From a virus: a DNA stretch of 64,000 bases. A program made the translations under genes and the position numbers. The notes under the pieces were generated by a model, which saw only the letters and a list, made by a program, of their open reading frames with translations, made no database searches and was not told the DNA's origin. Shown piece by piece: positions 6,567 through 61,716 of the stretch (its first letter is position 1; the number at the start of each line of letters is the position of its first letter). The stretch spans positions 1-64,000 of IMG/VR virus record IMGVR_UViG_3300007734_000759; one strand, written 5' to 3'.

Positions 6567-6638
6567 GCTCCGTTCGTCTAGGGGTTAGGACATCTCCCTT
6601 TCACGGAGGAAACAGGGGTTCGATTCCCCTACGGAGTA
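6567..6638 (+). tRNA. tRNA-Glu (anticodon TTC)
   Basis: The acceptor GCTCCGT pairs with ACGGAGT (one G-T end pair). The anticodon loop CTTTCAC on a TCTCC/GGAGG stem gives TTC, and the T arm is AGGGG-TTCGATT-CCCCT. CCA is not encoded. Confidence 0.9.
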
Positions 6639-6646
6639 CAAGTTTA

Positions 6647-6725
6647 GGATAGGTTACGGTAACGTAGAAACATAATACTCGGGCAGGGTTAGTTTCTATT
6701 AAGGGTTCGATACCTTTTCTATCCT
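6647..6725 (+). tRNA. aberrant tRNA-like element
   Basis: The acceptor (GGATAGG 6647-6653 with TCTATCC 6718-6724) and T arm (AAGGG-TTCGATA-CCTTT 6701-6717) are contiguous, as in a real tRNA. The middle is abnormal. A possible D arm has only an ACG/CGT stem with a 4-nt loop. The stem AGAAAC/GTTTCT (6666-6671, 6692-6697) encloses a 20-nt loop instead of 7 nt, so no anticodon can be assigned. It lies between intact tRNA-Glu and tRNA-Leu genes. Confidence 0.5.
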
Positions 6726-6733
6726 CAAAAAAT

Positions 6734-6814
6734 GCCTCTGTGGTGGAATGGTAGACACGCTAGACTTAGAATCTAGTGCCGCAAGGTGTGAGAGTTCGAG
6801 TCTCTCCGGAGGTA
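6734..6814 (+). tRNA. tRNA-Leu (anticodon TAG)
   Basis: Class II tRNA. The acceptor GCCTCTG pairs with CGGAGGT, the D arm is TGGTGGAATGG, the anticodon arm CTAGA-CTTAGAA-TCTAG gives TAG, the variable arm is TGCCGCAAGGTGT and the T arm is GAGAG-TTCGAGT-CTCTC. Confidence 0.9.
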
Positions 6815-6935
6815 CAGAGAGCCCTAAGGCCACGGGATCGTAGTTCCTCAACCTCTGTGATTAAGTTGAGTGGGATCGTAAGCCCGATAGGTTGGCAACT
6901 GACCTACTGACCCTTGATAGGCAATAGTTGCAAAC
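6815..6935 (+). ncRNA. possible structured RNA spacer between tRNA-Leu and tRNA-Gln
   Basis: This 121-nt spacer is more structured than other gaps. GGGATCGTA is repeated at 6834-6842 and 6872-6880. CTCAAC/GTTGAG (6847-6852, 6865-6870) and GCAACT/AGTTGC (6895-6900, 6926-6931) form inverted repeats. No ORF or complete tRNA shape is seen. It could be a small RNA or a degenerate tRNA remnant. Confidence 0.3.
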
Positions 6936-7009
6936 TACCCTCTCGTCTAACGGCAGGACAACTGGTTTTGGTCCAGTTAATTGAGGTTCGAATCCTTGGG
7001 GGGTAACCA
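6936..7009 (+). tRNA. tRNA-Gln (anticodon TTG), CCA encoded
   Basis: The acceptor TACCCTC pairs with GGGGGTA, the anticodon loop TTTTGGT on an ACTGG/CCAGT stem gives TTG, and the T arm is TGAGG-TTCGAAT-CCTTG. CCA is encoded at 7007-7009, unlike the neighbouring tRNA-Glu and tRNA-Leu. Confidence 0.9.
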
Positions 7010-40467: not shown

Positions 40468-40836
40468 ATGTTCAAACATCATTTAGCCTCCCTGACAAAA
40501 CACATGGTAGAATGCGGAATGCCCATTACTCCACTACCATCTGTGCAATTTATACACAACGACGAGGAGAATGCACAAGATATCCTAGGTAGAACAGCAT
40601 ATTACGAACCACAAAGTAAATGCATTGTACTTTACACTAAAGGAAGACATCCTAAGGATATACTAAGATCTTTTGCACATGAGATGATCCACCACATGCA
40701 AAATATAGAAGGAAGATTGAATCACATAGATACAACTAACGTAAACGAAGATCAAAATTTATATGAACTAGAGTTGGAAGCATACTCAAAAGGTAATATG
40801 TTATTTAGAGAGTGGGAAAACTCTTGCAGAGCATGA
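40468..40836 (+). CDS. zincin metallopeptidase-like protein (122 aa)
   Basis: HEMIH at residues 71-75 (SFAHEMIHHMQNIEG) is the HExxH zinc signature, and the downstream LYELELEAYSKGN offers a Glu as third ligand. The small size fits minimal peptidase domains seen in phages. It overlaps the HAD phosphatase gene (ATGA). There is no tag-like N-terminus. Substrate unknown. Confidence 0.7.
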   Translation: MFKHHLASLTKHMVECGMPITPLPSVQFIHNDEENAQDILGRTAYYEPQSKCIVLYTKGRHPKDILRSFAHEMIHHMQNIEGRLNHIDTTNVNEDQNLYELELEAYSKGNMLFREWENSCRA

Positions 40837-41345
40837 TTAAATTAGAACAACTACTAAAAGAAATACAACAACAGGATTATCGTATTTATTGTGATCTTGA
40901 TGGAGTCTTGAGTAATTTTGACGGTAGATTTAAAGAACTCGTAGGCGATTCGCCCGACAATTACAAAGATCAATACGGCAAGAAAGCGTTTTGGAGAGCT
41001 ATAGATGATCAAGGTGAGGAGTTCTGGTCAGGAATGAAACCAATGCCAGATGCTAAAAAGCTATGGAATTACATAGGCAAGTATAAACCCGAACTACTAT
41101 CAGCACCATCGAGCAAGCAATATTCACACACAGGTAAACAACTATGGGTAGATCAACACCTACCAGGTGTAACTCTGAACCTAAAACCCGCAACTGAGAA
41201 GCATTACTACTGCACAGGACCTTATGACATCTTAATAGACGACAGAGCAGACACGATTCAAAGATGGAATAATGCAGGTGGTGTAGGAATTCTACATAAA
41301 AATGCACAAGATACAATAAACCAACTAGCTGAGCTAGGTTTATGA
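40833..41345 (+). CDS. HAD-superfamily phosphatase with tag-like N-terminus (170 aa)
   Basis: I start at ATG 40833, which overlaps the upstream stop. Residues 1-14 (MIKLEQLLKEIQQQ) are tag-like and precede the HAD core, which begins at residue 17 with YRIYCDLDGVLSNFD (D21, D23 catalytic pair). A later DILIDDRADTIQRWNN supplies the acidic motif. The sequence type resembles 5'(3')-deoxyribonucleotidases, so it may dephosphorylate nucleotides or nucleic-acid ends. Confidence 0.75.
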   Translation: MIKLEQLLKEIQQQDYRIYCDLDGVLSNFDGRFKELVGDSPDNYKDQYGKKAFWRAIDDQGEEFWSGMKPMPDAKKLWNYIGKYKPELLSAPSSKQYSHTGKQLWVDQHLPGVTLNLKPATEKHYYCTGPYDILIDDRADTIQRWNNAGGVGILHKNAQDTINQLAELGL

Positions 41346-44371: not shown

Positions 44372-45403
44372 ATGATGCAAGACGTACTAGATAAATTTTT
44401 AAAGGAAGTAAGTTATAAATTTCCAAAAGGATATCCTGACATGAAAAACCCTCAGGATATTAAGTTATTAAATAAATTAGTTATGGAATATACAAATGAA
44501 GCAGAGGATCCTCAAATAGAACCTCAAGCAGATTCAACACAGCAATCATTATCAGAATACGATCAGATAATAGCAAGTACTATAGGAGACGGAAAAACTT
44601 ATCCCAAGCCTACCGGTGCATACAAGATTGGACAAGATGGAAATGTAAATAGCACTGATTTAAAATTCTATAAAGAGCTGTATTATAAAAGTCCTAAAAC
44701 TGCAAAAGGAGGAGAATCAAGTAAAGGATCAGGTCACGGTGAAATAGCAATGTACTGGCTTTTACAAAAAGAATATCCAGGACAAGTTCAGGATAATAGA
44801 AGAGAAGGTAAAGACGCAGCAGATTTAAAAATAGGTAATACAACCTTAGAGGTTAAAGCTGTAGGTACTAAACAAGTTCAATATGGTCGTATAGGGAGTG
44901 AAGGGGGAATCTTAGGATTGTTAAATGTAGTATTTGGAAGTACGGCAATGGACAGTGCAATGGATGGTGAAAACTTCTTAAATGATGGAAGTGCCTTAGG
45001 CTTCACAAAAGATCAACTAGTAAAAGCAGTAACCGCCTTCGACAAACTCAGAACAAACCAAGGCTTACGAGCATTGGCAAAAGGAGATGGTGTACCAAAG
45101 ATAGACTTCATAACTCAAATGATGACTAAGCTCGACAAAGCACATCTTGCTATGGGCGAGTATAAAAACGCAGAAGAAGGAGCAGGTAAAGTGTTACTAG
45201 ATCTACTAGCCAAAAAAACAATTAGTAAAATGGGAGGAGATGGCTACTTAGTAGATCTCACACCGCAAGGCGGTATGAAATACTACCATCTTACATTAGA
45301 TTACGTAAAAGGTCTTGATCCAAAGGATGCTTTAAATAGCGTAGTAGTTAACCAAGGGCAGTTGAAAGTTAACTTTGGACAGCTGTTGAGCAAGAAGCAA
45401 TAA
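44372..45403 (+). CDS. PD-(D/E)XK nuclease-like protein with tag-like N-terminus (343 aa)
   Basis: The chosen start is ATG 44372; an upstream extension to 44255 is a shadow of the Pro-rich tail of the previous gene. Residues 1-13 (MMQDVLDKFLKEV) are tag-like. The catalytic pattern is E124 (GHGEIAMYWLL), D151 (AADLKIG) and E160-x-K162 (TTLEVKAVG), the order of restriction-type endonucleases. The remaining 180 residues are helical. If packaged and injected it could attack host DNA or rival elements; alternatively it acts in DNA packaging. Confidence 0.65.
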   Translation: MMQDVLDKFLKEVSYKFPKGYPDMKNPQDIKLLNKLVMEYTNEAEDPQIEPQADSTQQSLSEYDQIIASTIGDGKTYPKPTGAYKIGQDGNVNSTDLKFYKELYYKSPKTAKGGESSKGSGHGEIAMYWLLQKEYPGQVQDNRREGKDAADLKIGNTTLEVKAVGTKQVQYGRIGSEGGILGLLNVVFGSTAMDSAMDGENFLNDGSALGFTKDQLVKAVTAFDKLRTNQGLRALAKGDGVPKIDFITQMMTKLDKAHLAMGEYKNAEEGAGKVLLDLLAKKTISKMGGDGYLVDLTPQGGMKYYHLTLDYVKGLDPKDALNSVVVNQGQLKVNFGQLLSKKQ

Positions 45404-45421: not shown

Positions 45422-46078
45422 ATGAAGCTAATAGACATACTAAAGGAATCAATCCAACCGGCTAAGAAGGGTTGTTCATGCGGTTGTAACTCGTGTGACA
45501 ACGCTCCAAAGCTAAAAGACACATCAACCATCATATCGGAAGGTTTACAATACCATATCGCGAATAAAAAACCTATTACCGATACGTTATATAGGTACGG
45601 TAGCGATGCTCACATTAAGCTTATTATTGAAACTCGTCAACTATTAGAAGAAGGTCGTATTGAGCTTAGTGGAGATGATTTAGAACTATTCGAAGAGAGT
45701 GACTTAGGTAGAATAGGAATCTACGAAGGACAAAAAGTCCTTTTAGATTACCCACTACTAGAAAACGAAGAAATCGACGAAGCTAAGCACGGCGGAAAAG
45801 ATGTACAACTCAACAAACCTAGAAGAGGTGGTCCTAAAAAGTTTTTTGTTTACGTTCGCAAACCTGGAGGAGGAATTAAGAAGGTAGCATTTGGAGCTAA
45901 AGAAGGAGGAGGTAACCTAGCTGTTAAACTCAACGATAGAGAAGCAAGACAAGCTTTTGCTAAGAGACATAAATGTGCACAGGCAAACGATAAAACAACT
46001 CCAAAGTATTGGAGCTGCAGACTTCCAAGATACGCAAAAGCATTAGGATTAAAATCAAACTTTACAGGATTCTGGTAA
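45422..46078 (+). CDS. tagged Cys-rich mosaic protein (218 aa)
   Basis: MKLIDILKESIQPAKKG is a tag followed at once by CSCGCNSCDN, a cluster of four Cys that could bind metal or an Fe-S centre. A second part (residues about 40-125) ends in IDEAKHGGKD. The C-terminal ~85 residues (PKKFFVYVRKPGGGIKKVAFG ... FAKRHKCAQANDKTTPKYWSCRLPRYAKALGL in pieces) form a basic domain common in environmental phages. The gene belongs to the cargo-like run and has its own late motif. Confidence 0.65.
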   Translation: MKLIDILKESIQPAKKGCSCGCNSCDNAPKLKDTSTIISEGLQYHIANKKPITDTLYRYGSDAHIKLIIETRQLLEEGRIELSGDDLELFEESDLGRIGIYEGQKVLLDYPLLENEEIDEAKHGGKDVQLNKPRRGGPKKFFVYVRKPGGGIKKVAFGAKEGGGNLAVKLNDREARQAFAKRHKCAQANDKTTPKYWSCRLPRYAKALGLKSNFTGFW

Positions 46079-46088
46079 AAAATAAAAT

Positions 46089-46646
46089 ATGGCAAATAAA
46101 CTAACACAAATGAACGAAATGTTGGCTGCTTCCAATGAAGCAATCACAACCCCAATGACTCTTGCACCTGAGGTGGTTAAGATGTTAATAGAGAGAATTG
46201 GAGATGAGTATACAGCACACTACTTCTACAGAAACGCTGCAAACTGGTGCAAAGAGAAAGCATATTTCAGAGCAGCAGCTTTTTTTGATGGAGAAGCATC
46301 AAACGAATTAGAGCATGCCAAGTTAGTGCAAGATTATTTAGTGGATTGGAACACTCTTCCAGTTATTCCACCCGTATCAATGGTACCACAATTTTGTAAC
46401 CTAATCGATATTGTAAACAAAGCATACGACTTAGAGTACGGCTTGTATTTGAAGTACAACGAAAACTCAGCAGCAGTATTTCCAGCAGATCTAGCTACAT
46501 TCGACTTCCTACAAGAACTAAGAATCGGACAGAGAAAATCAGTAGCAGAGTACTCAGATCTACTAAATGCTGCACAGCTAGTAAATGTATCAAATAACTT
46601 TGAGGTTCTATACTTCGAACAGACATACTTTCCTGAAGTAGGATAA
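46089..46646 (+). CDS. ferritin-like diiron protein (185 aa)
   Basis: Predicted four-helix ferritin fold that oxidises and stores iron. RIGDEYTAHYFYRNAANW (about 36-53) and EASNELEHAKLV (69-80) give the expected E40 and E73-x2-H76 ligands. DLEYGLYLKYNENS and LQELRIGQRKSVAEY (about 114-155) give the second pair of helices. The length is normal for ferritins. The N-terminus (MANKLTQMNEMLAASNEA) is helical but not a clear tag. It overlaps the next gene by 1 nt and is one gene from a superoxide dismutase, so the pair would limit oxidative damage. Confidence 0.75.
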   Translation: MANKLTQMNEMLAASNEAITTPMTLAPEVVKMLIERIGDEYTAHYFYRNAANWCKEKAYFRAAAFFDGEASNELEHAKLVQDYLVDWNTLPVIPPVSMVPQFCNLIDIVNKAYDLEYGLYLKYNENSAAVFPADLATFDFLQELRIGQRKSVAEYSDLLNAAQLVNVSNNFEVLYFEQTYFPEVG

Positions 46647-47431
46647 TGACTAATCTTACTGACATATTAAAAGAAATTCTTCTTGATGAGAAAAAGAAGA
46701 GAGACAGATGTCTACGTATTGCAGATCGTAAGTATGATAAACCATCTGCATATAAATCAGGTGCTGTAGTTAAATGTCGTCAAGGTAAGATTTGGAAAGA
46801 TTTGAAAGAGAATTGGCAAGATACTTCTTGGGAAAATGAAAAAGGGCAAAAAATAACCTTACCGCAGTTATTAGATGTTATAAAAAACTACCCTGTTAAA
46901 AATATTCCTGTAAAAGACGTAGAAAAAATAGTTATCAGAAAAGACACAGGAGGTATAGAATCTGATAGATTGGACAAAGCGGATACTCAACATCCAATTA
47001 TAATTGTTGTAGACGATAATAATAATCTTAAATATATTCTAGACGGTAACCACAGAGCCAATAAGGCCATAGATAATGAATTAAAAACCATTCCAGCTAA
47101 ACTAGTAAACATTAAAGAATTACCACAAGACTTTCAAAATGTTTTAACTGAAGAAGAATCACTACGAAAGTGGTTCGGACGCAAAGGAGCACCTGGCAAA
47201 TCGAAAGGTTGGGTAGATTGTAATACTTGTCGTGATGGTAAATGTAAACCGTGTGGCAGACAGGAAGGAGAGAAAAGATCAAAATATCCATCATGCAGAC
47301 CAACACCAGCAGCATGTAAACAAAAAGGTAAAGGTAAGACGTGGGGTAAAACTAAGGAAAACCTAGACCCTAAAACATTCAAAGATACAGGAAAAGCCGC
47401 ACCATACGGTTCAGGATATAAACCAGCATGA
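46646..47431 (+). CDS. tagged ParB-like / Cys-rich mosaic protein (261 aa)
   Basis: MTNLTDILKEILLDEKKKRD is a strong tag with LLDE as cut site. Next comes CLRIADRKYDKPSAYKSG (residues 22-39), a basic Cys module. The centre (IIIVVDDNNNLKYILDGNHR) has the DGNHR box of ParB-like nuclease/ATPase domains. The C-terminal module (LRKWFGRKGAPGKSKGWVDC ... CKPCGRQEGEKRSKYPSCRP) is a Cys/Gly/Lys domain that recurs in marine phages. The modular build suggests domain shuffling among cargo proteins. Confidence 0.65.
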   Translation: MTNLTDILKEILLDEKKKRDRCLRIADRKYDKPSAYKSGAVVKCRQGKIWKDLKENWQDTSWENEKGQKITLPQLLDVIKNYPVKNIPVKDVEKIVIRKDTGGIESDRLDKADTQHPIIIVVDDNNNLKYILDGNHRANKAIDNELKTIPAKLVNIKELPQDFQNVLTEEESLRKWFGRKGAPGKSKGWVDCNTCRDGKCKPCGRQEGEKRSKYPSCRPTPAACKQKGKGKTWGKTKENLDPKTFKDTGKAAPYGSGYKPA

Positions 47432-47432
47432 T

Positions 47433-48122
47433 ATGATAACTCTATTAGAAATATTAAAAGAAGCATCTAAGGAAAAAACTGAACGTTTAGAAAAACAAGA
47501 TGTAAAATTTAAAATACCAAAATTAAATTATTCATACTCTTCTCTTCAACCGTACATAGATAAGGAGACTATGGAAGAGCATTTCAATAAACATTTTAAA
47601 GGATACACGGATAAACTTAATGCTGAATTAGATGAAAAATCTATCAGAGTAAAAGCTGAAAATCAAATTGAAGCTATTCAAATAATACTAGGTAAATATC
47701 CTAAAAATGATATTATTAGAAATAACGGCGGCGGTTTTTACAATCACGTCTTGTATTTTGAAAACATTACACCCGACTATAAGGCACCTTCAACTAAGTT
47801 TAAAAACTTATTAGAAAAAAACTTTAATTCATTTTCCGAATTTAAAGAAAAATTTAAAGAAGCTGGTTTAAAGCAATTTGGATCAGGTTGGGTATTTTTA
47901 ATTCAAAAAGGAAATAAATTAGTCATAGAATCATATGCTAATCAAGATAATCCGTATCTTGATAAAAATTTTAAAGGCAGAATTTTAATTGCTATGGATG
48001 TTTGGGAACATGCTTACTACCTAAAACATAAATCCCAAAGAGGAAATTATATTAATGATTTTTTTAAAGTAGTAGATTACAAAGTAGCTGAAGAAAGATT
48101 AGAAATACCAAATACTTTATAA
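47433..48122 (+). CDS. sod: Fe/Mn superoxide dismutase with N-terminal tag extension (229 aa)
   Basis: Converts superoxide to O2 and H2O2. The metal ligands are all present: H50 (TMEEHFNKHFKGY), H105 (NNGGGFYNHVLYFE), D189 and H193 (MDVWEHAYYLK). The normal SOD start (LPYAxxALxPxI in bacterial enzymes) aligns with LNYSYSSLQPYI at residue 31. About 25 extra residues therefore precede it, beginning MITLLEILKEASKE, the same tag found on unrelated neighbours. The gene follows the ParB-like mosaic by 1 nt and is one gene from the ferritin. Virion packaging is inferred from the tag. Confidence 0.9.
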   Translation: MITLLEILKEASKEKTERLEKQDVKFKIPKLNYSYSSLQPYIDKETMEEHFNKHFKGYTDKLNAELDEKSIRVKAENQIEAIQIILGKYPKNDIIRNNGGGFYNHVLYFENITPDYKAPSTKFKNLLEKNFNSFSEFKEKFKEAGLKQFGSGWVFLIQKGNKLVIESYANQDNPYLDKNFKGRILIAMDVWEHAYYLKHKSQRGNYINDFFKVVDYKVAEERLEIPNTL

Positions 48123-48134
48123 AGAATATCCAAT

Positions 48135-48770
48135 ATGTTAAATAATAACATCCCGTTTTTTAAATGTTTAATCAAACAGTCGTATTTTACAAAAGATGTT
48201 AGAGATGCTGAGATATACCATGATGCTTATGCTTTTGGAATTCAATCAGTAACAGGAAAAATTCTTACATTTCACGTAATGACCGATTATGGAATGTTAA
48301 GGTCGAGAGTTCCCATCTCAGAATTGTATATAAAAAAACCTGTAAAAGATATCCCATACTACTACAAGCAACTGTGGGACTGTTTTGATAATGACAGCAC
48401 TGTGGTTTTTTATGAATACCTCAAAGAAAAACGTTGCAAAGTGATCCTTAGAGATAAAACATTTACCTGGGCAACTTACATGTTTACCGTAGACTGGCAA
48501 AATAACCCATACAGCGACGAACCCAGTGACTACAAGTGTGGACACGTACTTAGAGCAGATGATGGTTATTTAATGTGTATGCCAAATAATAGAATTTTTT
48601 GGAAAGATTCTAATTGGATCACTAAAGAGTTTCCTATTGAACCTAAGGCAATTAAAGTAGATACTGAATTATTAGCAGTAGAATCTGTTGCCGACCGATG
48701 GATAACAGAGGATACTGATTCATTTTATTACGATATCCATGAAGCCGTACAAAGACCTAAAAGTCACTAA
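48135..48770 (+). CDS. conserved hypothetical protein (211 aa)
   Basis: The product begins MLNNNIPFFKCLIKQSYFT. It contains AYAFGIQSVTGKILTFHVMT and LRSRVPISELYIKK near the N-terminus and ADRWITEDTDSFYYD near the end. I recall similar proteins in marine T4-like phages, function unknown. It overlaps the following cupin-like gene by 32 nt in another frame. Confidence 0.6.
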   Translation: MLNNNIPFFKCLIKQSYFTKDVRDAEIYHDAYAFGIQSVTGKILTFHVMTDYGMLRSRVPISELYIKKPVKDIPYYYKQLWDCFDNDSTVVFYEYLKEKRCKVILRDKTFTWATYMFTVDWQNNPYSDEPSDYKCGHVLRADDGYLMCMPNNRIFWKDSNWITKEFPIEPKAIKVDTELLAVESVADRWITEDTDSFYYDIHEAVQRPKSH

Positions 48771-48999
48771 TAAGTATATTCTTCGAGAATTTTCACAAAA
48801 CATTGATCCTATCGAACTTATGTGGCATAGGGATGATGAAGATAGGATGGTTGAAATAATAGGAGAAACTGATTGGAAACTGCAATTAGATAATCAACTT
48901 CCAACAAGCATGAACGAGCCTATATTTATACCAAGACATGAATGGCATAGAGTCATTAAAGGAACAGGAAATCTTACTTTGAAAATACACAAACTGTGA
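48739..48999 (+). CDS. cupin-like small protein (86 aa)
   Basis: LMWHRDDEDRMVEIIGETDW and EPIFIPRHEWHRVIKGTGNL give the two-motif His/Asp/Glu pattern of a single small cupin barrel, with WH-x-D and H-x3-H as possible metal ligands. The size is the minimum for the fold. It could be a dioxygenase-like or purely sugar-binding unit. The GTG start of the next gene overlaps its stop (GTGA). Confidence 0.6.
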   Translation: MKPYKDLKVTNKYILREFSQNIDPIELMWHRDDEDRMVEIIGETDWKLQLDNQLPTSMNEPIFIPRHEWHRVIKGTGNLTLKIHKL

Positions 49000-50516
49000 A
49001 GAAACTAATATTAGAAATAGTAGAACTTAGTAGCGACGAAAGATCTCAAATAGATCAGATCATACCTAAGATAGTGCAAGCATACCAAGAAGGTAAAGCA
49101 GTTAAAGGAGGAGCGTATCCGGTAGGAAGCATAACGTATAAAATGAGGTCAGCAGAAAACCTACCTCGACTACAGAAGCAGCAGAAAGATTTACAAGCTA
49201 AACTTGAGAAAGCTCCAGATGATCAAAAACCACCTATACAAGATAAATTAAGTAGGATAGACAAAGCCATATCGACCGAATCCCAAGGAGGAAAAGTTAG
49301 CATATTACTATCGAACGGACACAGACAACATCCAGAAAACGTGGAAGGTTTATACCTACCTGTAAATCTTACAAATTTACAAGATAACGTCATAAGCATT
49401 AGTCAAAATCTCGTTCAGAAATACTACGGATTAAAAGGAAAACTAACTGGTAGAGAGAAGGAAGGTGAGCAACAACTACGTCGAGTTTTAACTCACGAAT
49501 TAGTCCATGCTAAAGATCCAACACTAAACCACCTTAGTCCAAACGCACAAGGAAGACGAGCAAGACCGGGAAGAGAGGAGACTGAGCAATCTGGTGAATT
49601 TAACATAGAAGCATATTTTAAAAAACCAGAAGAAGCACTAGCTTTCTCAAGCCAATTGAACGAAGTAATAACGAGATTAATATCTACTTGGATCAAAGAT
49701 AACTTAAAGACAGGAGAGGAAATAGTAACTAAAATTCCTGGAGTGGGTGTTCCAATAATTCAACAAACCGATAAAGCTCTATACGCAAAAGCTGAAGAAA
49801 TACAAGACGCATTACGGGACCTAGATCAGCTATTTGCTAAAGGGTTAAGAGCTAGAAGTTTTTCTCCTTTGGGTAAAGCGTTTATGAAGGAGATAGAAAG
49901 TGAGGGACTTTTCAAGAAGTTTTTTAATAAAATTTACAAATTCCTAGAAAAAATAGGATTAAGTAAAAAAATAGAAACTCCTCAAGACAGCTATATTCAA
50001 GCAATGGAACTACTTAAAAAATACAACCCAAAAGGATACGAAGCAGCAGCTAAAGGATTTCGAAAGAGCTTCAAAAAACTAGAGCTAGCAATTAATGCAG
50101 CACTATATAAGAGAATGGTAGCATTACTTAAAGCTGCTGACGATCTTCCTGGATTACAAAAAGAAAAAACTAAACTAGAAAAAGAACTACAAGCTTTAAA
50201 AGCAATCCCAGCAACTTCTAGAGAAAAGAGAGCAGAGTTGGAGAACCAAATAGGGCAGCTTGACTCTCTACTAAAAACAGCAACTCGGATCAATAAAAAT
50301 CCAAATACTGCAAAGATTATACAAATAGCAGTTGAAGGAACTGACCCTCCAAGAGAGGAGATAGCAGATTCAACGAAGGTTAGTCAAATTAAAACAGAGC
50401 TTGAAGCAGCGAAAGGGAAGTTATATCCTAAACAAGCGGTAACTGAGATAACAGCTTTAAAGAATAGATTAGTAGAACAAGTTTATAAAAAAATAATTGA
50501 ACTAGTACAAAGTTAA
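48996..50516 (+). CDS. zincin metallopeptidase with long helical region (506 aa)
   Basis: The start codon is GTG at 48996, overlapping the upstream TGA. MKKLILEIVELSSDER is a weak tag-like N-terminus. HELVH at 167-171 (RVLTHELVHAKDP) is the zinc signature, and the downstream EFNIEAYFKKPEE region offers a Glu as third ligand. Residues about 260-506 are long helices and coiled coils (LQKEKTKLEKELQALKA and similar). The helical region could span the head core or pair with another protein. Target protein unknown; host-protein cleavage after injection is speculation. Confidence 0.65.
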   Translation: MKKLILEIVELSSDERSQIDQIIPKIVQAYQEGKAVKGGAYPVGSITYKMRSAENLPRLQKQQKDLQAKLEKAPDDQKPPIQDKLSRIDKAISTESQGGKVSILLSNGHRQHPENVEGLYLPVNLTNLQDNVISISQNLVQKYYGLKGKLTGREKEGEQQLRRVLTHELVHAKDPTLNHLSPNAQGRRARPGREETEQSGEFNIEAYFKKPEEALAFSSQLNEVITRLISTWIKDNLKTGEEIVTKIPGVGVPIIQQTDKALYAKAEEIQDALRDLDQLFAKGLRARSFSPLGKAFMKEIESEGLFKKFFNKIYKFLEKIGLSKKIETPQDSYIQAMELLKKYNPKGYEAAAKGFRKSFKKLELAINAALYKRMVALLKAADDLPGLQKEKTKLEKELQALKAIPATSREKRAELENQIGQLDSLLKTATRINKNPNTAKIIQIAVEGTDPPREEIADSTKVSQIKTELEAAKGKLYPKQAVTEITALKNRLVEQVYKKIIELVQS

Positions 50517-50526
50517 AAAATAAGAA

Positions 50527-51252
50527 ATGTCAATAGTAGTTGTAGGAGCAGGCTTAGCAGGGTTATCAGTAGTAGATACCTTACTACAGAATGATATGAA
50601 CCCACAAGAAGTAGTGTTAATCCACGAAGGAGTAAATCCATGGGATCGTGATAGTATATACGGATTTGGAGGAAATACATGGACTAACAAACTTACGTTA
50701 ACAAAAAAATTACAACTCTTACCCGAACTACAAAATTACTTAGATCCTCAAGACATAGACGTGAAGATAGCACAGGCAAGTACTTTCATAAGTAAGTATA
50801 CTAACAGCAGAGCAGTGGAATACGAGGATCGAATTGAATTAGATTCCGAAACAGTAAATTATTTTTTAGCAAAAATATGGGCTGATTTTAGAAACAACCA
50901 AATTAAAATAGAAGGTGAGTCAGTCTGTAGGCAAATAACTAATATAAGCAATTACATTATTTACGACAAACAAGGAGAGGATTTTCAACACGAGCAACGC
51001 TTCACTAAGTTAGTTCTTGCAACAGGAAGAGATGGATACAACGTGGCACACTCCTTAGGAGAATACGCTGCAGGTTTGGCAGATATTCCACTTAAAATAG
51101 TCACACCAAGTACTTTACAAGTTAACAAGAACTGTACTTTATGTAATATGGAAAGTGTTTATGTCGTAGGGAGTATATTAGGCTATACGAATCCTATGGT
51201 GTCAATTATCCAAGGAATTATAGCAGGAGAATCAATAGCAAAAAGTATATAA
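50527..51252 (+). CDS. FAD/NAD(P)-binding Rossmann-fold oxidoreductase (241 aa)
   Basis: MSIVVVGAGLAGLSVVDTLL holds the GxGxxG dinucleotide motif at residues 7-12, with an acidic residue at the end of the second strand (VVLIHEG). The C-terminal SVYVVGSILGYTNPMVSIIQG is the second FAD-contact motif of flavin oxidoreductases. It is shorter than most flavoprotein monooxygenases and has a CTLCNM cysteine pair near residue 200, which could be redox-active. Substrate unknown. It overlaps the next gene by 1 nt. Confidence 0.7.
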   Translation: MSIVVVGAGLAGLSVVDTLLQNDMNPQEVVLIHEGVNPWDRDSIYGFGGNTWTNKLTLTKKLQLLPELQNYLDPQDIDVKIAQASTFISKYTNSRAVEYEDRIELDSETVNYFLAKIWADFRNNQIKIEGESVCRQITNISNYIIYDKQGEDFQHEQRFTKLVLATGRDGYNVAHSLGEYAAGLADIPLKIVTPSTLQVNKNCTLCNMESVYVVGSILGYTNPMVSIIQGIIAGESIAKSI

Positions 51253-51593
51253 TGAAAAACATAGTAATATTGTGGATTATATCCATAGGTTTAGCAGTAG
51301 GAATAGGATGGTACTTACACAAAGAACCAACCACTCCACCACCAAGCACAGACAGATATCAACATCAGATTGACAGTTTGATAAAATACAACGATAGTTT
51401 AAATACTCTCGTTGATCTCAACAACAAAGATATTTCTCGATTAAGAGATTCAATTAATAAAGTTGAAGCAGGAATTGACAGGAAAGAAGATAATTTAGAT
51501 AAACTAAAAAAAGATTATGAACAAAAAATTAAGCGTATTGATAGCTTGTCTTCTGATGAGCTTACCAAGCTTCTCACAGAAAGGTACAAGTGA
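51252..51593 (+). CDS. i-spanin-like membrane coiled-coil protein (113 aa)
   Basis: An N-terminal transmembrane helix (MKNIVILWIISIGLAVGIGWYL) is followed by a periplasmic coiled coil (residues about 38-105, IDSLIKYNDSLNTLVDLNNK and KLKKDYEQKIKRIDS). The 3' end overlaps by 77 nt, out of frame, with the next gene. This is the same architecture as 9709/10019 and as Rz/Rz1 pairs. The call is architectural. Confidence 0.55.
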   Translation: MKNIVILWIISIGLAVGIGWYLHKEPTTPPPSTDRYQHQIDSLIKYNDSLNTLVDLNNKDISRLRDSINKVEAGIDRKEDNLDKLKKDYEQKIKRIDSLSSDELTKLLTERYK

Positions 51594-51921
51594 TTCTTTA
51601 ATACTACTTCCTAAGTCTATTGTAGTTAAAATTACAAAAGATTTGGAAAGATATGATCTATGTAAGAAAGAAGTTCTAACAAAAGACAGTGTTATTCGTG
51701 ATTATATTACTATAAAACATATCAACGATAGTATTATACATAAGCTAGACAGCAATCAAAACATACACCTAACACAAATTTCCAACTGGGAAAAAGCAGA
51801 TTCTACACGGAATTTACAAGTAACTGGGTTGAAAAATGACGTAGAAAAGTACAAAACTCAACGTAATTGGGCAGGTGGACTGGGTGTAGCTTTAACGGTT
51901 TTGGCGATACTATTCCTATGA
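51517..51921 (+). CDS. exported C-terminally anchored coiled-coil protein, spanin-partner candidate (134 aa)
   Basis: It starts inside the previous gene in another frame. MNKKLSVLIACLLMSLPSFS is a signal peptide. A periplasmic region with repeated KDSVI, INDSI and LDSNQ spacing runs to a C-terminal transmembrane helix (GGLGVALTVLAILFL). A classic o-spanin lipobox is absent (a Cys is present at residue 11 but without a lipobox context I would trust). It overlaps the terminase start by 4 nt (ATGA). Confidence 0.55.
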   Translation: MNKKLSVLIACLLMSLPSFSQKGTSDSLILLPKSIVVKITKDLERYDLCKKEVLTKDSVIRDYITIKHINDSIIHKLDSNQNIHLTQISNWEKADSTRNLQVTGLKNDVEKYKTQRNWAGGLGVALTVLAILFL

Positions 51922-53486
51922 GTCAACCAGATTTAAGAGAGGCAATACGCCTAGAATTCATTAAATGTGCACAAGATCCAGCGCATTTTATGAAGAAATA
52001 CTGTTACATTCAACACCCTCAGAAGGGTAGAATCCTATTTAATCTGTACCCTTTTCAGGGAAAAGTATTAAATTTATGGAAAGATAACAAGTATAATATC
52101 GTTTTGAAGTCGAGACAGTTAGGAATTTCTACACTTGGTGCAGGATATTCTCTATGGTTAATGTTATTTCATAAGGATAAAAACGTACTTTGTATTGCAA
52201 CTAAGCAAGAAACTGCTAAGAATATGGTTACCAAGGTGCGTTTTATGTATGAACACCTACCTTCTTGGCTTAAAGTAACAGCGGATGAGAATAATAAACT
52301 ATCATTAAGGCTGTCAAATGGCTCTCAAATCAAAGCAGTATCAGCTGCATCCGATGCAGGTCGTTCAGAAGCTGTGTCATTATTGCTGATCGACGAGGCT
52401 GCTTTCATCGATGGCATTGGAGAAATATGGGCTTCTTCGCAGCAAACACTTGCAACGGGTGGGGGAGCAGTAGTATTATCAACTCCAAATGGAGCAGGTA
52501 ACTGGTTTCACAAAACATGGGTAGACGGAGAATCAGGAGAAAACGACTTCTTACCTATTAGATTACCCTGGAGTGTACACCCAGAAAGAGACCAATCATG
52601 GAGAGATACCCAAGATAAACTATTAGGACCACGAATGGCAGCACAGGAATGCGACTGCAACTTTGATACATCAGGAGATGTAGTGTTCACATCTGAGGTA
52701 CTAGAACAATACATGCCTATGATTCAAGATCCAATCGAACGTAGAGGGATGGATAGAAACCTTTGGGTATGGGAACCAGTAGATTGGAGTAAGCAGTATA
52801 TGGTTCATGCCGACGTGGCAAGAGGAGATGGAAAAGACTACTCAGCCTTCCACGTAATGGATCTAGCAACTTGTACACAAGTGGCAGAGTATAGAGGACA
52901 AATCCCAACAAAAGAGTACGCTCAACTACTAACAGCAATAGCAACAGAATACAACTCAGCACTCCTCGTAGTTGAGAATGCAAACATAGGATGGGCGGTT
53001 GTACAGGATATAATTGCTCTAGGCTATGCTAACCTACACTACACAGTAAAAGGAGAGCAGAACGCAGTAGAGACCTATATAAATGCATACGAAGATCCAT
53101 CTAAGATGGTTCCAGGATTCACTACATCAGCTAAAACTCGTCCAATGATTATAGCTAAGATGGAAGAATATGTGAGAGAAGGTAGTGTTGTTTTTAAATC
53201 TAAACGACTGCTAGAGGAGATGAGAGTATTCATCTGGAAAAACGGAAGAGCAGAAGCGCTATCGGGATACAATGATGACTTAGTTATGAGCTTTGCTATA
53301 GGATTATATACAAGAGACACAGCACTGAGATATAGAGGTCAAAGTTGGGATATGGGTAGAAGTATGTTTAATAATATGACTAAGGTTGATACGTTCTTAC
53401 CTAAGAATTATGACGATTACAAAGACAGAAATCCATACCAAATGGATGTCAATGGAGGACAAGAAGACATCCGTTGGCTATTCTGA
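51918..53486 (+). CDS. 17: large terminase subunit, T4 gp17-like (522 aa)
   Basis: Packages DNA into the prohead using ATP and cuts the concatemer. I start at ATG 51918 (MSQPDLREAIRLEF), which overlaps the upstream stop. The ATPase has a Walker A variant SRQLGIST (65-72), Walker B LLLIDE (155-160) and the coupling motif VVLSTPNG. The nuclease domain has VHADVARGDGKDYSAF (D299), an acidic VVENANIG and GYNDDLVMSFAI near 470. The length is somewhat below T4 gp17 (610 aa). No recognisable small terminase is next to it. Confidence 0.95.
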   Translation: MSQPDLREAIRLEFIKCAQDPAHFMKKYCYIQHPQKGRILFNLYPFQGKVLNLWKDNKYNIVLKSRQLGISTLGAGYSLWLMLFHKDKNVLCIATKQETAKNMVTKVRFMYEHLPSWLKVTADENNKLSLRLSNGSQIKAVSAASDAGRSEAVSLLLIDEAAFIDGIGEIWASSQQTLATGGGAVVLSTPNGAGNWFHKTWVDGESGENDFLPIRLPWSVHPERDQSWRDTQDKLLGPRMAAQECDCNFDTSGDVVFTSEVLEQYMPMIQDPIERRGMDRNLWVWEPVDWSKQYMVHADVARGDGKDYSAFHVMDLATCTQVAEYRGQIPTKEYAQLLTAIATEYNSALLVVENANIGWAVVQDIIALGYANLHYTVKGEQNAVETYINAYEDPSKMVPGFTTSAKTRPMIIAKMEEYVREGSVVFKSKRLLEEMRVFIWKNGRAEALSGYNDDLVMSFAIGLYTRDTALRYRGQSWDMGRSMFNNMTKVDTFLPKNYDDYKDRNPYQMDVNGGQEDIRWLF

Positions 53487-57795: not shown

Positions 57796-58422
57796 ATGAG
57801 CAAGCAAGTATTAATAGAAACCCAAATCTTTAAACCTAAACCATTAACAATTGTTGAAGGTGTAGGAGGTACCAAGAACCTTTTGGTAGAGGGTATTCTT
57901 GCTACTGCTGAAGTGAAGAATGGCAACGGCCGTTACTATTCAAAAGAGTTGTGGGATAGAGAGATCGGCAAATACATGGAATTGGTTAGGGAGAGAAGAG
58001 CTTGTGGTGAGCTTGATCACCCCGATTCCCAAATTATAAACTTAAAGAACGTATCCCACGTTATCACAGATATGTGGTGGGATGGGGATAAGGTAATAGG
58101 AAAAATTGAAATCCTACCAACCCCATCAGGAAACATTCTTACATCCTTGTTTGAAAACAGCATACCAGTAGGAGTATCTTCAAGAGGTATGGGGTCTCTA
58201 AAACAAGTAGGAGAAATCATGGAAGTACAAGATGATTTCGAACTCCTATGCTGGGACTTTGTATCAACACCATCTAACCCAGGATCATACATGGCTCCAG
58301 TAGGTAAGATGAGAATGAATGAAGGATTACAAGCTTCACAAGGAAGCACTGACAAGTTTGCAAAAGTAAACCAAATCCTCACAGAAATTCTGTGTGCAAA
58401 CGGTACTTGTCCATTATTTTAA
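57796..58422 (+). CDS. 21: prohead core protease, T4 gp21-like (208 aa)
   Basis: A serine protease that cuts scaffold, capsid and internal proteins at (L/I)xE sites during head maturation. The catalytic His is H75 in GELDHP; the Ser is in VGVSSRGMGS (S128/S129); WDFVSTPS carries a conserved Asp (D154). The length fits gp21 (212 aa in T4). Its gene lies between core proteins and the scaffold, and a terminator follows. It is the enzyme expected to process the tagged proteins of this window. Confidence 0.95.
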   Translation: MSKQVLIETQIFKPKPLTIVEGVGGTKNLLVEGILATAEVKNGNGRYYSKELWDREIGKYMELVRERRACGELDHPDSQIINLKNVSHVITDMWWDGDKVIGKIEILPTPSGNILTSLFENSIPVGVSSRGMGSLKQVGEIMEVQDDFELLCWDFVSTPSNPGSYMAPVGKMRMNEGLQASQGSTDKFAKVNQILTEILCANGTCPLF

Positions 58423-58637: not shown

Positions 58638-59975
58638 ATGTCAAGAGCATTATTAAAAGAAGCAATTGCCGACGCAAAAGCCGTGAAGGAAGCTGCTATT
58701 GCAAACGCCAAGGCTGCTCTCGAGGAAGCATTTACACCACACCTGAAGGAACTTCTTGCTAGCAAACTGGAAAGTTTGGAAGAAGAAGAAATGGAAACTG
58801 AAGGAATGGGTAAAGCATCCAAGATGAAAAGAGCCATGGACGAGTATGGGATGGAGCATCCAGATATCGACATGGACGGCGATGGAGATGTTGACGCAGA
58901 CGACGTCGCATTGATGAAGGAAATTGATCTCGATGAAATCTTAGCTGAATTAGACGGCTTAGATGAAAAGAAGATCAAAACAGCTCGTCAAACAGACAAC
59001 CGCGATGCGGAGGAAGAGGATAATCCATTTGATAAAGGTAGAACCAAACATCAACCAATGGATGAAGCCAAGAAATCAGATGATTCTGAAGAAGAAGCAG
59101 ATGATGAAGAATTTAACATGGATAACATTGAAAAAGCAATCAGAAAAGTCATCGACGATATGGTTGAAGCTGGTGAACTGGAAGCAGGAGAAGGCGAATC
59201 AAGAGAAGATGAGGATTCAATGAAAGACTTGGAAGATGATGCCATGGGTGAAGAAGATGAAGAGATTGACTTACAAGAGCTTATTAGAGAGATGAAAAAA
59301 GAAGAACAAATGCGTGAATATGTTGAAGGCGGACCTTCTTCTGAAAATGCTCTGTTGAAAGCCGTTGATGCTGCTCTTGAAAAGGGTGGTGAATTAGCTA
59401 AAAAACTATTGAAGCTACTAGCTAGTGGTGGTGGTGGTTGGCAAAGAGGTGGTATGTATGAAGAGGACTTGAACGAATACGTTGAAGGTGGTCCTTCTTC
59501 TGAAAACGCTCTACTAAAGGCTGTTGATGCTGCTCTTGAAAAGGGTGGAGAATTGGCTAAAAAGCTAATGGCACTACTTGCTCAAGGTGGTGGTGGTTGG
59601 GATCAAGGAGGTATTTATGAAGATGAGCTTAACGAAGCTTACTCTACCATTAAAACTCTCCGCTCTGAACTTAATGAAGTAAACTTGCTAAACGCTAAGT
59701 TGCTTTATACCAACAAAATCTTCAAAGCTAAAAACTTGACTGAAGGTCAAAAGGTAAAGGTTTTATCAACATTTGATAAAGCTACAACTGTAAAAGAAGT
59801 TAAATTGGTATTTGAATCACTAAGTACATCAATTGCTGCTTCTAACAGCACAGTTAAAGCTCCAATCAAAGAATCAATGGGCTTTGCATCTAAAGCTTCA
59901 GGCGTAGTTAAAAACAATCAAACGATTGAAACAGACGCTGTGATCGCTCGCATGAAAAAGCTCGCAGGACTATAA
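58638..59975 (+). CDS. 22: prohead scaffold core protein, T4 gp22-like, with duplicated module and EF-hand-like motif (445 aa)
   Basis: The main scaffold of the prohead, expected to be destroyed by gp21. It is acidic and helical with a start MSRALLKEAIADAKAVKEAA like gp22. It is longer than T4 gp22 (269 aa) because of two additions. First, DMDGDGDVDADDVALM (about residue 75) is an EF-hand/dockerin-type calcium loop. Second, a 53-residue unit beginning EYVEGGPSSENALLKAV is present twice in tandem. The C-terminus (LNEVNLLNAKLLYTNKIFKA, IARMKKLAGL) matches the conserved gp22 end. Confidence 0.9.
   Translation: MSRALLKEAIADAKAVKEAAIANAKAALEEAFTPHLKELLASKLESLEEEEMETEGMGKASKMKRAMDEYGMEHPDIDMDGDGDVDADDVALMKEIDLDEILAELDGLDEKKIKTARQTDNRDAEEEDNPFDKGRTKHQPMDEAKKSDDSEEEADDEEFNMDNIEKAIRKVIDDMVEAGELEAGEGESREDEDSMKDLEDDAMGEEDEEIDLQELIREMKKEEQMREYVEGGPSSENALLKAVDAALEKGGELAKKLLKLLASGGGGWQRGGMYEEDLNEYVEGGPSSENALLKAVDAALEKGGELAKKLMALLAQGGGGWDQGGIYEDELNEAYSTIKTLRSELNEVNLLNAKLLYTNKIFKAKNLTEGQKVKVLSTFDKATTVKEVKLVFESLSTSIAASNSTVKAPIKESMGFASKASGVVKNNQTIETDAVIARMKKLAGL
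59316..59633 (+). repeat. tandem 159-bp duplication inside the scaffold gene
   Basis: Unit 1 is 59316-59474 and unit 2 is 59475-59633, each 53 codons, encoding EYVEGGPSSENALLKAV...GELAKKL...GGGGW...N. The protein copies are nearly identical while many third positions differ, so the duplication is not recent and the copies are under selection. Confidence 0.85.
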
Positions 59976-60006: not shown

Positions 60007-61716
60007 ATGAGCACAATTCAATCATTACTTGAATCAGCTAATCCTTGGAGAAACGTACAATCTGACGCTGCAAGATTAGCAACCAAGTGGGCTAAAACTG
60101 GCTTGCTTGAAGGCCTAGATGGCGAAATCAATCGTAACAACATGGCTATGATGCTTGAAAACCAAGCTAAGCAACTTGTTGTTGAATCTTCAACTTCTGG
60201 TGGTGGTACCGCAGGTGGTACCTTTACTGCAGGTGTAGGTGAACAGTGGGCTGGTGTAGCTCTTCCATTGGTACGTAAGGTGTTTGGACAGATCGCTTCT
60301 AAGGAGTTCGTTTCTGTTCAACCTATGAACTTGCCATCTGGACTAGTATTCTTCTTGGATTTCCAATATGGAACTAACAAAAACCCATTCTCTAGCGCAG
60401 CAGGAGCCAACTCAGTATTCGGTGGAACTTCAACCCCAGGATCTTCTGCAGGATATCCTTTCTCTACCAACAATGCAACCAACGGTTTGTACGGAGCTGG
60501 TCGTTACACCTACTCTACTAACTTGACTGGATCTCTATTGGCACAAGCAGCTGCTACCAACTTAGGTATCACAACTGCATCTGCTACTTGGGCTTCTTTC
60601 AACTTCGATGCTGATTTTACATCATCTTTTGGTACTTTTGACGTATACACTCTTACAAATGCTTCTACCAAACTAGTAAACATGGATAAAGAAGCAGTAC
60701 GCAGCTTCTACATTTCTGGTTCATACACTGGTGCAACTAAAGCAGGTATCGCATTGCCAGCATTCACAACTTATAATGCTACTACTGACGCTTTGTCCTT
60801 CATTGTAACTAAGTCAGCTTTCACAGGAGCTACTCCTCTAGCACCTACAGCATTTACAGGTTCTTTCATCATCTCCTACTCAATGCAGCCTACTGACAAT
60901 AAGAGAGGTGATTTTGAAGATACAAACACTACATTGAACCAAGCTTACAACAACCCAATTTCTATTCCAGAAATCAACGTTCAGATGCAATCTCAAGCGA
61001 TCGTTGCTAAAACTAAGAAATTGAAAGCTGTATGGACTCCTGAATTTGCTCAAGATTTGAACGCTTACCAAAACATTGATGCTGAAGCTGAATTGACTTC
61101 AATGATGTCTGAGTACGTTTCTCTTGAGATTGATTTGGAAATCCTAGATATGTTGATTCAAGATGCTGCTGCTGGTACTGAGTTCTGGTCTGCCGTTAAC
61201 AACGTAGCTTACGACGGAACAGCTCTTACCACTCTTACCTCTGGTTTCTACAACACTCAAGGTCAATGGTTCGCAACTCTTGGTACTAAAGTTCAAAAGC
61301 TTTCTAACAAGATTCACCAATTGACTCTTCGTGGTGGTGCTAACTTCTTGGTAATGTCTCCAACAGTATCTACTATCTTGGAATCAATTCCTGGATTCGC
61401 TGCTGATGTGAACGGTCAAACTGAGAAAATGAACTATGCTTTCGGAGTACAGAAAGTAGGTCAATTGAACGGTCGCTATAAGGTTTATAAGAACCCATAC
61501 ATGACTGAAAACACAATCTTGGTTGGTTTCCGTGGTTCTCAGTTCTTGGAAACTGGTGCTGTATTTGCTCCTTACATTCCATTAATTATGACTCCTCTTG
61601 TGTACGATCCAAACACCTTCACTCCACGTAAAGGTCTATTGACTCGCTACGCTAAGAAGATGTTGCGTCCTGAGTACTATGGTAAGATCTACGTATCTGG
61701 CTTAACTACTATCTAA
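60007..61716 (+). CDS. 23: major capsid protein, T4 gp23-like (569 aa)
   Basis: Forms the hexamers of the head. VQPMNLPSGLVFFLDFQYG (near residue 105), PEINVQMQSQAIVAKTKKLKA (in pieces), WTPEFAQDLNAYQNIDAEAELT and RYAKKMLRPEYYGKIYV are signature blocks of gp23. The N-terminal ~60 residues are the expected propeptide. A likely gp21 cut is after E60 (QLVVE/SSTSGGG), the equivalent of the T4 cut after residue 65. The gene uses many GCT/TCT/GGT codons, unlike its neighbours, consistent with high expression. Confidence 0.95.
   Translation: MSTIQSLLESANPWRNVQSDAARLATKWAKTGLLEGLDGEINRNNMAMMLENQAKQLVVESSTSGGGTAGGTFTAGVGEQWAGVALPLVRKVFGQIASKEFVSVQPMNLPSGLVFFLDFQYGTNKNPFSSAAGANSVFGGTSTPGSSAGYPFSTNNATNGLYGAGRYTYSTNLTGSLLAQAAATNLGITTASATWASFNFDADFTSSFGTFDVYTLTNASTKLVNMDKEAVRSFYISGSYTGATKAGIALPAFTTYNATTDALSFIVTKSAFTGATPLAPTAFTGSFIISYSMQPTDNKRGDFEDTNTTLNQAYNNPISIPEINVQMQSQAIVAKTKKLKAVWTPEFAQDLNAYQNIDAEAELTSMMSEYVSLEIDLEILDMLIQDAAAGTEFWSAVNNVAYDGTALTTLTSGFYNTQGQWFATLGTKVQKLSNKIHQLTLRGGANFLVMSPTVSTILESIPGFAADVNGQTEKMNYAFGVQKVGQLNGRYKVYKNPYMTENTILVGFRGSQFLETGAVFAPYIPLIMTPLVYDPNTFTPRKGLLTRYAKKMLRPEYYGKIYVSGLTTI

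Follow-up and report, generated by a model that had tools for sequence, protein, structure and literature searches.

A predicted capsid-cargo cassette with ferritin and superoxide dismutase in a T4-like phage

The 64,000-nucleotide stretch analyzed here (the window) is part of the virus record IMGVR_UViG_3300007734_000759, 159,435 bases long, and carries at positions 46089-51252 a run of genes that includes a ferritin and a superoxide dismutase (SOD). We consider it probable that this interval belongs to a capsid-cargo cassette, and that the SOD, and probably the ferritin, are packaged in the phage head against superoxide and Fenton damage to phage DNA. Since its large terminase subunit is 59% identical to that of Flavobacterium phage immuto, the source virus is a T4-like phage, probably with a Bacteroidota host. 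A wider proposal, to which we lean only slightly, is that the heads of Bacteroidota T4-like phages are loaded enzyme compartments. Ferritin, SOD, a plastocyanin-like protein and dozens more would enter them via scaffold-mimicking or capsid targeting sequence (CTS)-type tags, some as polyproteins cut by the prohead protease gp21, giving the virion antioxidant and iron-sequestering content.

Internal proteins of T4 carry propeptides of 10-19 residues that direct them into the core of the prohead, where gp21 cuts after L/I-x-E (PMC9026906), and this targeting sequence is all that T-even internal proteins have in common (PMC3012670). In the window, the SOD and the products of the open reading frames (ORFs) at 46646, 45422 and 44372 begin with a short, hydrophobic helical stretch that closes with L/I-x-E. 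The tag was formulated as h..hh.E near the N-terminus (h, hydrophobic) and counted in mechanically called, non-redundant ORFs of loci related to the ferritin or the SOD, plus immuto and Mel-JY01, with internal windows as the control. It was observed in 97 of 387 ORFs, against 11.8 ± 3.1 in internal windows; with Asp replacing Glu there were 11 matches for 11.2 expected, and Gln, Ser and Thr gave a milder excess. The Glu lies mostly at position 10 or 12, the tagged proteins form 60 payload clusters, and 19 of the 26 ORFs in the variable cassette of six relatives are tagged. As a control, the pattern matched 12 of 116 coding sequences of T4, including ipII, ipIII, Alt, gp24 and gp2, and missed ipI. 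Strong statistical contrasts of this kind bear on the motifs, not on the products.

The SOD matches Sod_Fe_N (2.5e-19) and Sod_Fe_C (1.6e-30) in Pfam. Alignment with an E. coli SodA reference places the ligands H26, H81, D167 and H171, together with Y34 and the Mn-type G77/Q146, in 14/14 phage copies, and pairwise dN/dS (nonsynonymous to synonymous rate ratio; each copy against that of the window) is about 0.10-0.14. The protein is a true Mn-type SOD with complete metal ligands; it looks functional and is under purifying selection. Its N-terminal extension of 23 residues, MITLLEILKE/ASKEKTERLEKQD (the slash marks the candidate cut here and below; the protein starts MITLLEILKE/ASKEK), precedes residue 24, from which alone cellular-type SODs align. 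Standalone SODs of the relatives are tagged. SOD matches in phage records were mostly cellular-type enzymes resembling host DNA, plus distant SODs of jumbo phages.

Ferritin and SOD could instead be late auxiliary metabolic genes that handle iron and oxidative stress in the infected cell, their extensions being irrelevant or serving another localization. Intact active sites and purifying selection are equally expected for such genes, and many ferritins are untagged. We nevertheless regard this as unlikely: cellular SODs lack the 23-residue extension, its form is common to unrelated proteins, and the specificity for Glu and the recurrence of the motif at polyprotein junctions, described below, are left unexplained.

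The ferritin gene product matches PF00210 (Pfam, E=4.6e-17) and, by phmmer, bacterial non-heme ferritins (about 1e-12) in an alignment starting at about residue 25; residues 1-24 are an extension relative to FtnA that starts MANKLTQMNE, in which position 8 is hydrophobic and position 10 is Glu. A four-helix ferritin fold with a short fifth helix is indicated by both the Pfam match and the AlphaFold model (predicted local distance difference test, pLDDT, 84.7, with residues 8-18 below 50), which superposes on E. coli FtnA with a target-normalized template modeling (TM) score of 0.89-0.90 and a root-mean-square deviation of about 1.3 Å. The ferroxidase ligands of the window ferritin are E40, E73, H76, E116 and Q148, plus Y47; in FtnA numbering, E17, Y24, E50, H53, E94 and Q127 are invariant in 82/82 ferritins from viral contigs. 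The E. coli FtnA reference was cross-checked by PDB alignment. The third iron site, E49, E126, E129 and E130 in FtnA, is mostly lost (position 49 is N, S, T or A, 126 mostly G or I, and 130 S or A in 79/82), and the protein is therefore classed as a non-heme ferritin and not as the FtnA subtype. Pairwise dN/dS is about 0.06-0.08 (unsaturated pairs). The ferritin is under purifying selection, its active site is intact and it looks functional; iron oxidation and a 24-subunit cage are predicted. A profile search found relatives in 98 viral contigs and a single one in bacterial and archaeal genomes, on a metagenome-assembled contig; three divergent queries gave no match among 50,697 records of isolate phages. 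Within the collections searched, the family appears to be nearly phage-only.

Ferritin extensions of the window clade drift except at position 8, which stays hydrophobic, and at Glu10. Hydrophobic-x-E is present in 25/37 dereplicated long extensions, against 16.2 ± 2.6 after shuffling (0/2000 shuffles reach 25), and 94 of 278 ORFs within three places of a ferritin are tagged, for 8.4 expected. In the 80 loci kept, the ferritin lies with gp21, gp22 or gp23 in 12 loci (gp21 and gp23 were Pfam-confirmed in the cases examined), near a homologue of the 45422 gene, its commonest conserved upstream neighbor, in 27, and near a tail tube gene in seven; 34 were unclassified. Because of the tag statistics and the loci with head genes, association of the ferritin with the head is likely, and a location in heads is favored. 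In large-phage contigs (L092, L097, L100, L121 and similar), unrelated genes near the ferritin share a recurrent N-terminus (MKHLKLFEEF, MKYLKRFNEN, MKHVKLFEQFIFE), possibly the version of the head tag used by those phages.

A reading made earlier from the sequence alone had connected the phage ferritin with iron carried in tails or heads toward siderophore receptors. The seven tail-tube loci, which in the examined cases place the ferritin before a baseplate hub gene, agree with a Ferrojan-horse role of this type, in which a tail ferritin presents iron to those receptors, as does the mass-spectrometric report of a different ferritin-like protein in a Vi01-like virion (PMC10892097). However, more loci put the ferritin among genes of the prohead core or in the head-cargo cassette, a ferritin holds iron inside a protein cage and not as a receptor ligand, and no dependence on TonB/FeoB was seen for the Vi01-like phages (PMC10892097). 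The tail proposal is not supported by these data, and we hold it to be highly improbable.

A second tag resembles the end of the scaffold. The gp22 homologue of the window has the N-terminus MSRALLKE/A and the C-terminus ARMKKLAGL, and a motif of the RMQKLAG type ends gp22 in this phage, immuto, Mel-JY01 and 11 further phages. The same motif occurs at 13 N-termini and at no internal position, usually with I-T-E or a similar site next (RMQKLAGIITE); a cargo tag imitating the scaffold end would fit docking in the prohead core. Tags of the RMQKLAGxITE type also occur outside the late window, at 97842, 104271, 104609 and 136220 of the full record (L021-L023), two of them adjacent, and their bearers are perhaps further cargo. 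Microcystis phage Mel-JY01 (PP395634, L026) groups with immuto and this phage by its terminase (54%) and scaffold end; the cyanobacterial host listed for it may be worth checking.

In relatives L034-L038, the SOD is one module within proteins of 1000-1600 residues that also hold NMNAT-like, plastocyanin, GNAT, zeta-type kinase and NT5C modules and zincin motifs, and in L039 an NT5C module precedes it. The SOD domain of these multidomain proteins (430-1600 residues) is always preceded by hydrophobic-x-E (LKE, LNE, IRE, LQE, IKE or ITE), at a spacing of six residues in 5/6. The peptide APFGSGYKP of L035 continues via LKE directly into the SOD; in the window, APYGSGYKP is the end of the 46646 product, and the tagged SOD begins one base on. 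With automatic domain boundaries, hydrophobic-x-E was in excess in cargo-like proteins (z=7.3), compared with z=0.4 for all remaining proteins. As the first automatic boundary set was noisy, a test on ten named modules was added: 48 of 55 module starts have the motif within 22 residues upstream, against 23.7 ± 3.6 and a maximum of 36 in 1000 draws. No comparable excess of h-x-D, h-x-K or h-x-x-E was found at junctions, and on these controls, with the non-cargo proteins, composition alone was rejected as the source of the motif. Phage immuto, cultivated on strain LMO8, has the same tags and encodes similar long multidomain proteins; this architecture is confined to immuto and relatives L034-L039, the cassette genes of the window being mostly of one or two modules. 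The multidomain proteins of L034 and L035 contain a plastocyanin-type copper domain (Copper-bind, 6.8e-14 and 4e-16).

These might also be polyvalent proteins of the usual kind, processed by metallopeptidase modules that they contain, with hydrophobic-x-E reflecting linker composition. They do contain zincin-like motifs (SHEMIHH, HELEHL, HELVH), and such processing has been proposed by Iyer et al. (PMC5512222). Yet the motif is specific, equals the gp21 rule and is not enriched at the boundaries of other proteins, and most standalone tagged proteins have no peptidase motif; we consider self-processing quite improbable.

Under the cargo interpretation, the payloads would be made late with an N-terminal propeptide, either a hydrophobic helix ending in L/I-x-E or RMQKLAGIITE, that docks them onto the scaffold core within the prohead. 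Cleavage by gp21 after the Glu, before DNA packaging, would free the mature protein and, in relatives, split multi-enzyme polyproteins into modules. SOD would then remove superoxide while ferritin oxidizes and stores Fe(II), which would lessen Fenton damage to packaged or just-injected DNA; the protection would act in the free virion or at entry. We infer from the sequence patterns that the payloads are expressed late, dock on gp22, are cut by gp21 and are present in the virion; the protective purpose of SOD and ferritin in the head is the most speculative element.

Several points weigh against this interpretation. The ferritin tag is partial, comprising position 8 and Glu10 without the full helix, and it is absent from ferritin clades with N-termini of 8-18 residues, including the clade found with gp21 and gp22; because these short-extension clades are untagged, head association is less certain for the ferritin than for the SOD. 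A 24-mer ferritin cage measures about 12 nm and the portal channel about 3 nm, so ejection of an assembled cage through the portal is implausible, and the ferritin would therefore remain inside the head or enter it in the form of smaller units. The products of 48135, 48739 (cupin-like) and 50527 (flavoprotein) are untagged. Homologous sequences are not independent, and the null comparisons therefore overstate significance; no virion proteomics was found for these phages.

The ORFs at 44-51 kb are closely packed on a single strand immediately upstream of the terminase gene (Table 1). The 46646 ORF overlaps the ferritin stop by 1 nt, and a gap of 1 nt separates 46646 from the SOD; 48135 starts 12 nt past the SOD, 48739 overlaps 48135 by 32 nt, 48996 overlaps 48739 by 4 nt, 50527 starts 10 nt past 48996, and 51252 overlaps 50527 by 1 nt. 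Sequences of the L/I-x-E type also lie inside two of these products: LTE precedes the Cys-rich RKWFGRKG module of the 46646 product, and IDE/AKH (IDE at 45773-45781) precedes the C-terminal domain of the 45422 product. The ParB-like stretch of 46646 (phrog_17560, 1.3e-11; phrog_723, 0.018) is inserted within a Cys-rich protein whose L002 version lacks the insert. In most relatives the first 37 or so residues of the 44372 product are kept at about 60% identity, and the remaining payload differs. The 48996 product is probably tagged, a partial fit with Glu at 10. A 48739 homologue lies directly downstream of the ferritin in L007-L009. At the place of 50527, relatives carry other flavoproteins of 265-450 residues, and no relatives of the 50527 flavoprotein itself were found in viral contigs. 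PHROG 3704 labels the 48135 product 'ferredoxin', probably wrongly, as this member has only scattered cysteines and matches no ferredoxin family in Pfam. An overlapping pair at 51252-51921, directly before the terminase gene, resembles Rz/Rz1-type spanins (51252: phrog_739, 2.6e-6), and three tRNA genes (Glu, Leu, Gln) lie at 6567-7009.

Table 1. Features of the window that bear on the proposed cassette
Feature	Coordinates	Strand	Remarks
NT5C-like nucleotidase	40833..41345	+	tag MIKLEQLLKE; NT5C module also inside relatives' polyproteins
44372 protein	44372..45403	+	tag MMQDVLDKFLKE/V at 44372-44407
45422 protein	45422..46078	+	tag MKLIDILKE/S (45422-45448); CSCGCNSC Cys motif
Ferritin, 185 residues	46089..46646	+	Pfam, phmmer, AlphaFold model, alignment
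ParB/Cys mosaic	46646..47431	+	tag MTNLTDILKE (46646-46675), then I; DUF5872-like N-part; ParB-like insert
Mn-type superoxide dismutase	47433..48122	+	Pfam, ligand alignment; tag 47433-47462
phrog_3704 conserved protein	48135..48770	+	no tag; anchor downstream of variable cassette
Small cupin-like protein	48739..48999	+	conserved anchor; cupin assignment by eye
506-residue protein, GTG start	48996..50516	+	N-terminus MKKLILEIVE/L (48996-49025); HELVH zincin-type motif
Short FAD-binding flavoprotein (GAGLAG)	50527..51252	+	untagged
Large terminase subunit (terL)	51867..53486	+	identity to immuto; downstream limit of cassette
Prohead protease gp21 homologue	57796..58422	+	Peptidase_S77, PF03420, 2e-29; predicted tag cutter
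Scaffold gp22 homologue	58638..59975	+	position and resemblance to gp22 cluster of L090 and others
Major capsid protein gp23	60007..61716	+	1.1e-73; candidate propeptide cut VVE/S

The sequence-only reading had described the interval as an island for iron and oxidative stress that is not part of T4 morphogenesis. All the ORFs it listed exist as described (48135 and 48996, inside the interval, were not mentioned), and Pfam, phrog and ligand evidence bears out the ferritin-like diiron protein, the SOD and the ParB/Cys mosaic. The diiron ligands are retained, and many other contigs share the order of the neighboring genes. Of the two weaker calls, the cupin-like protein shows a likeness of pattern with no Pfam match, and the GxGxxG flavoprotein has its GAGLAG motif and a weak Pyr_redox_2 match (1.5e-5), below the Pfam cut-off. 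Redox and iron chemistry is supported for ferritin and SOD by their intact active sites and dN/dS of about 0.06-0.14. A dedicated redox grouping is not supported: in relatives the tags also stand on many payloads that have no redox role, and SOD and ferritin come and go independently of each other. The idea of a single redox operon was dropped because the tagged payloads of relatives are unrelated. Separation from T4 morphogenesis looks misleading, since the tags, the hydrophobic-x-E sites and the 12 loci with gp21, gp22 or gp23 point to head assembly.

If the cargo interpretation holds, a sequence rule would predict which unannotated proteins of these phages travel in the head, 'auxiliary metabolic gene' calls such as SOD and ferritin would become testable predictions of virion cargo, and the phage capsid may serve as a container for protective enzymes. 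The analysis also reveals a family of phage ferritins, and T4 internal proteins, polyvalent proteins and encapsulin-like cargo loading become linked.

The closest known counterparts are IPI-III and Alt of T4, which likewise have a short N-terminal propeptide with hydrophobic positions, Glu near residue 10 and the L/I-x-E rule, and are diverse payloads with the tag alone in common; a gp21 homologue is encoded here too. In contrast to T4, the payloads here include SOD and ferritin and span tens of families, a second tag copies the gp22 C-terminus, polyproteins have a site at most junctions, and packaging is predicted from sequence. Polyvalent proteins of phages and conjugative elements (Iyer et al. 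2017, PMC5512222) are similarly long polypeptides in which unrelated enzyme domains and zincins are mixed, thought to be packaged and delivered; 'superoxide' is not a word in that paper, and here the junctions have prohead-protease-type sites and the same modules also occur as separately tagged genes. Bacterial FtnA shares the fold (TM about 0.9), the ferroxidase A/B ligands and Tyr24 with the phage ferritins, which differ in having mostly lost the third site (E49, E126, E130) and in an N-terminal extension of 8-69 residues. A virion SOD has a precedent in chlorovirus PBCV-1 (PMC7019647), where the enzyme is expressed late, has been reported from the virion and is thought to lower superoxide during infection, although that enzyme is a Cu/Zn SOD of an unrelated family in a eukaryotic virus. 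Encapsulins (PMC8346489) offer an analogy only, with their HK97-fold shell, enzyme cargo and dedicated loading mechanism, whereas the shell here would be a phage head filled with DNA, and the N-terminal tag is predicted to be cleavable.

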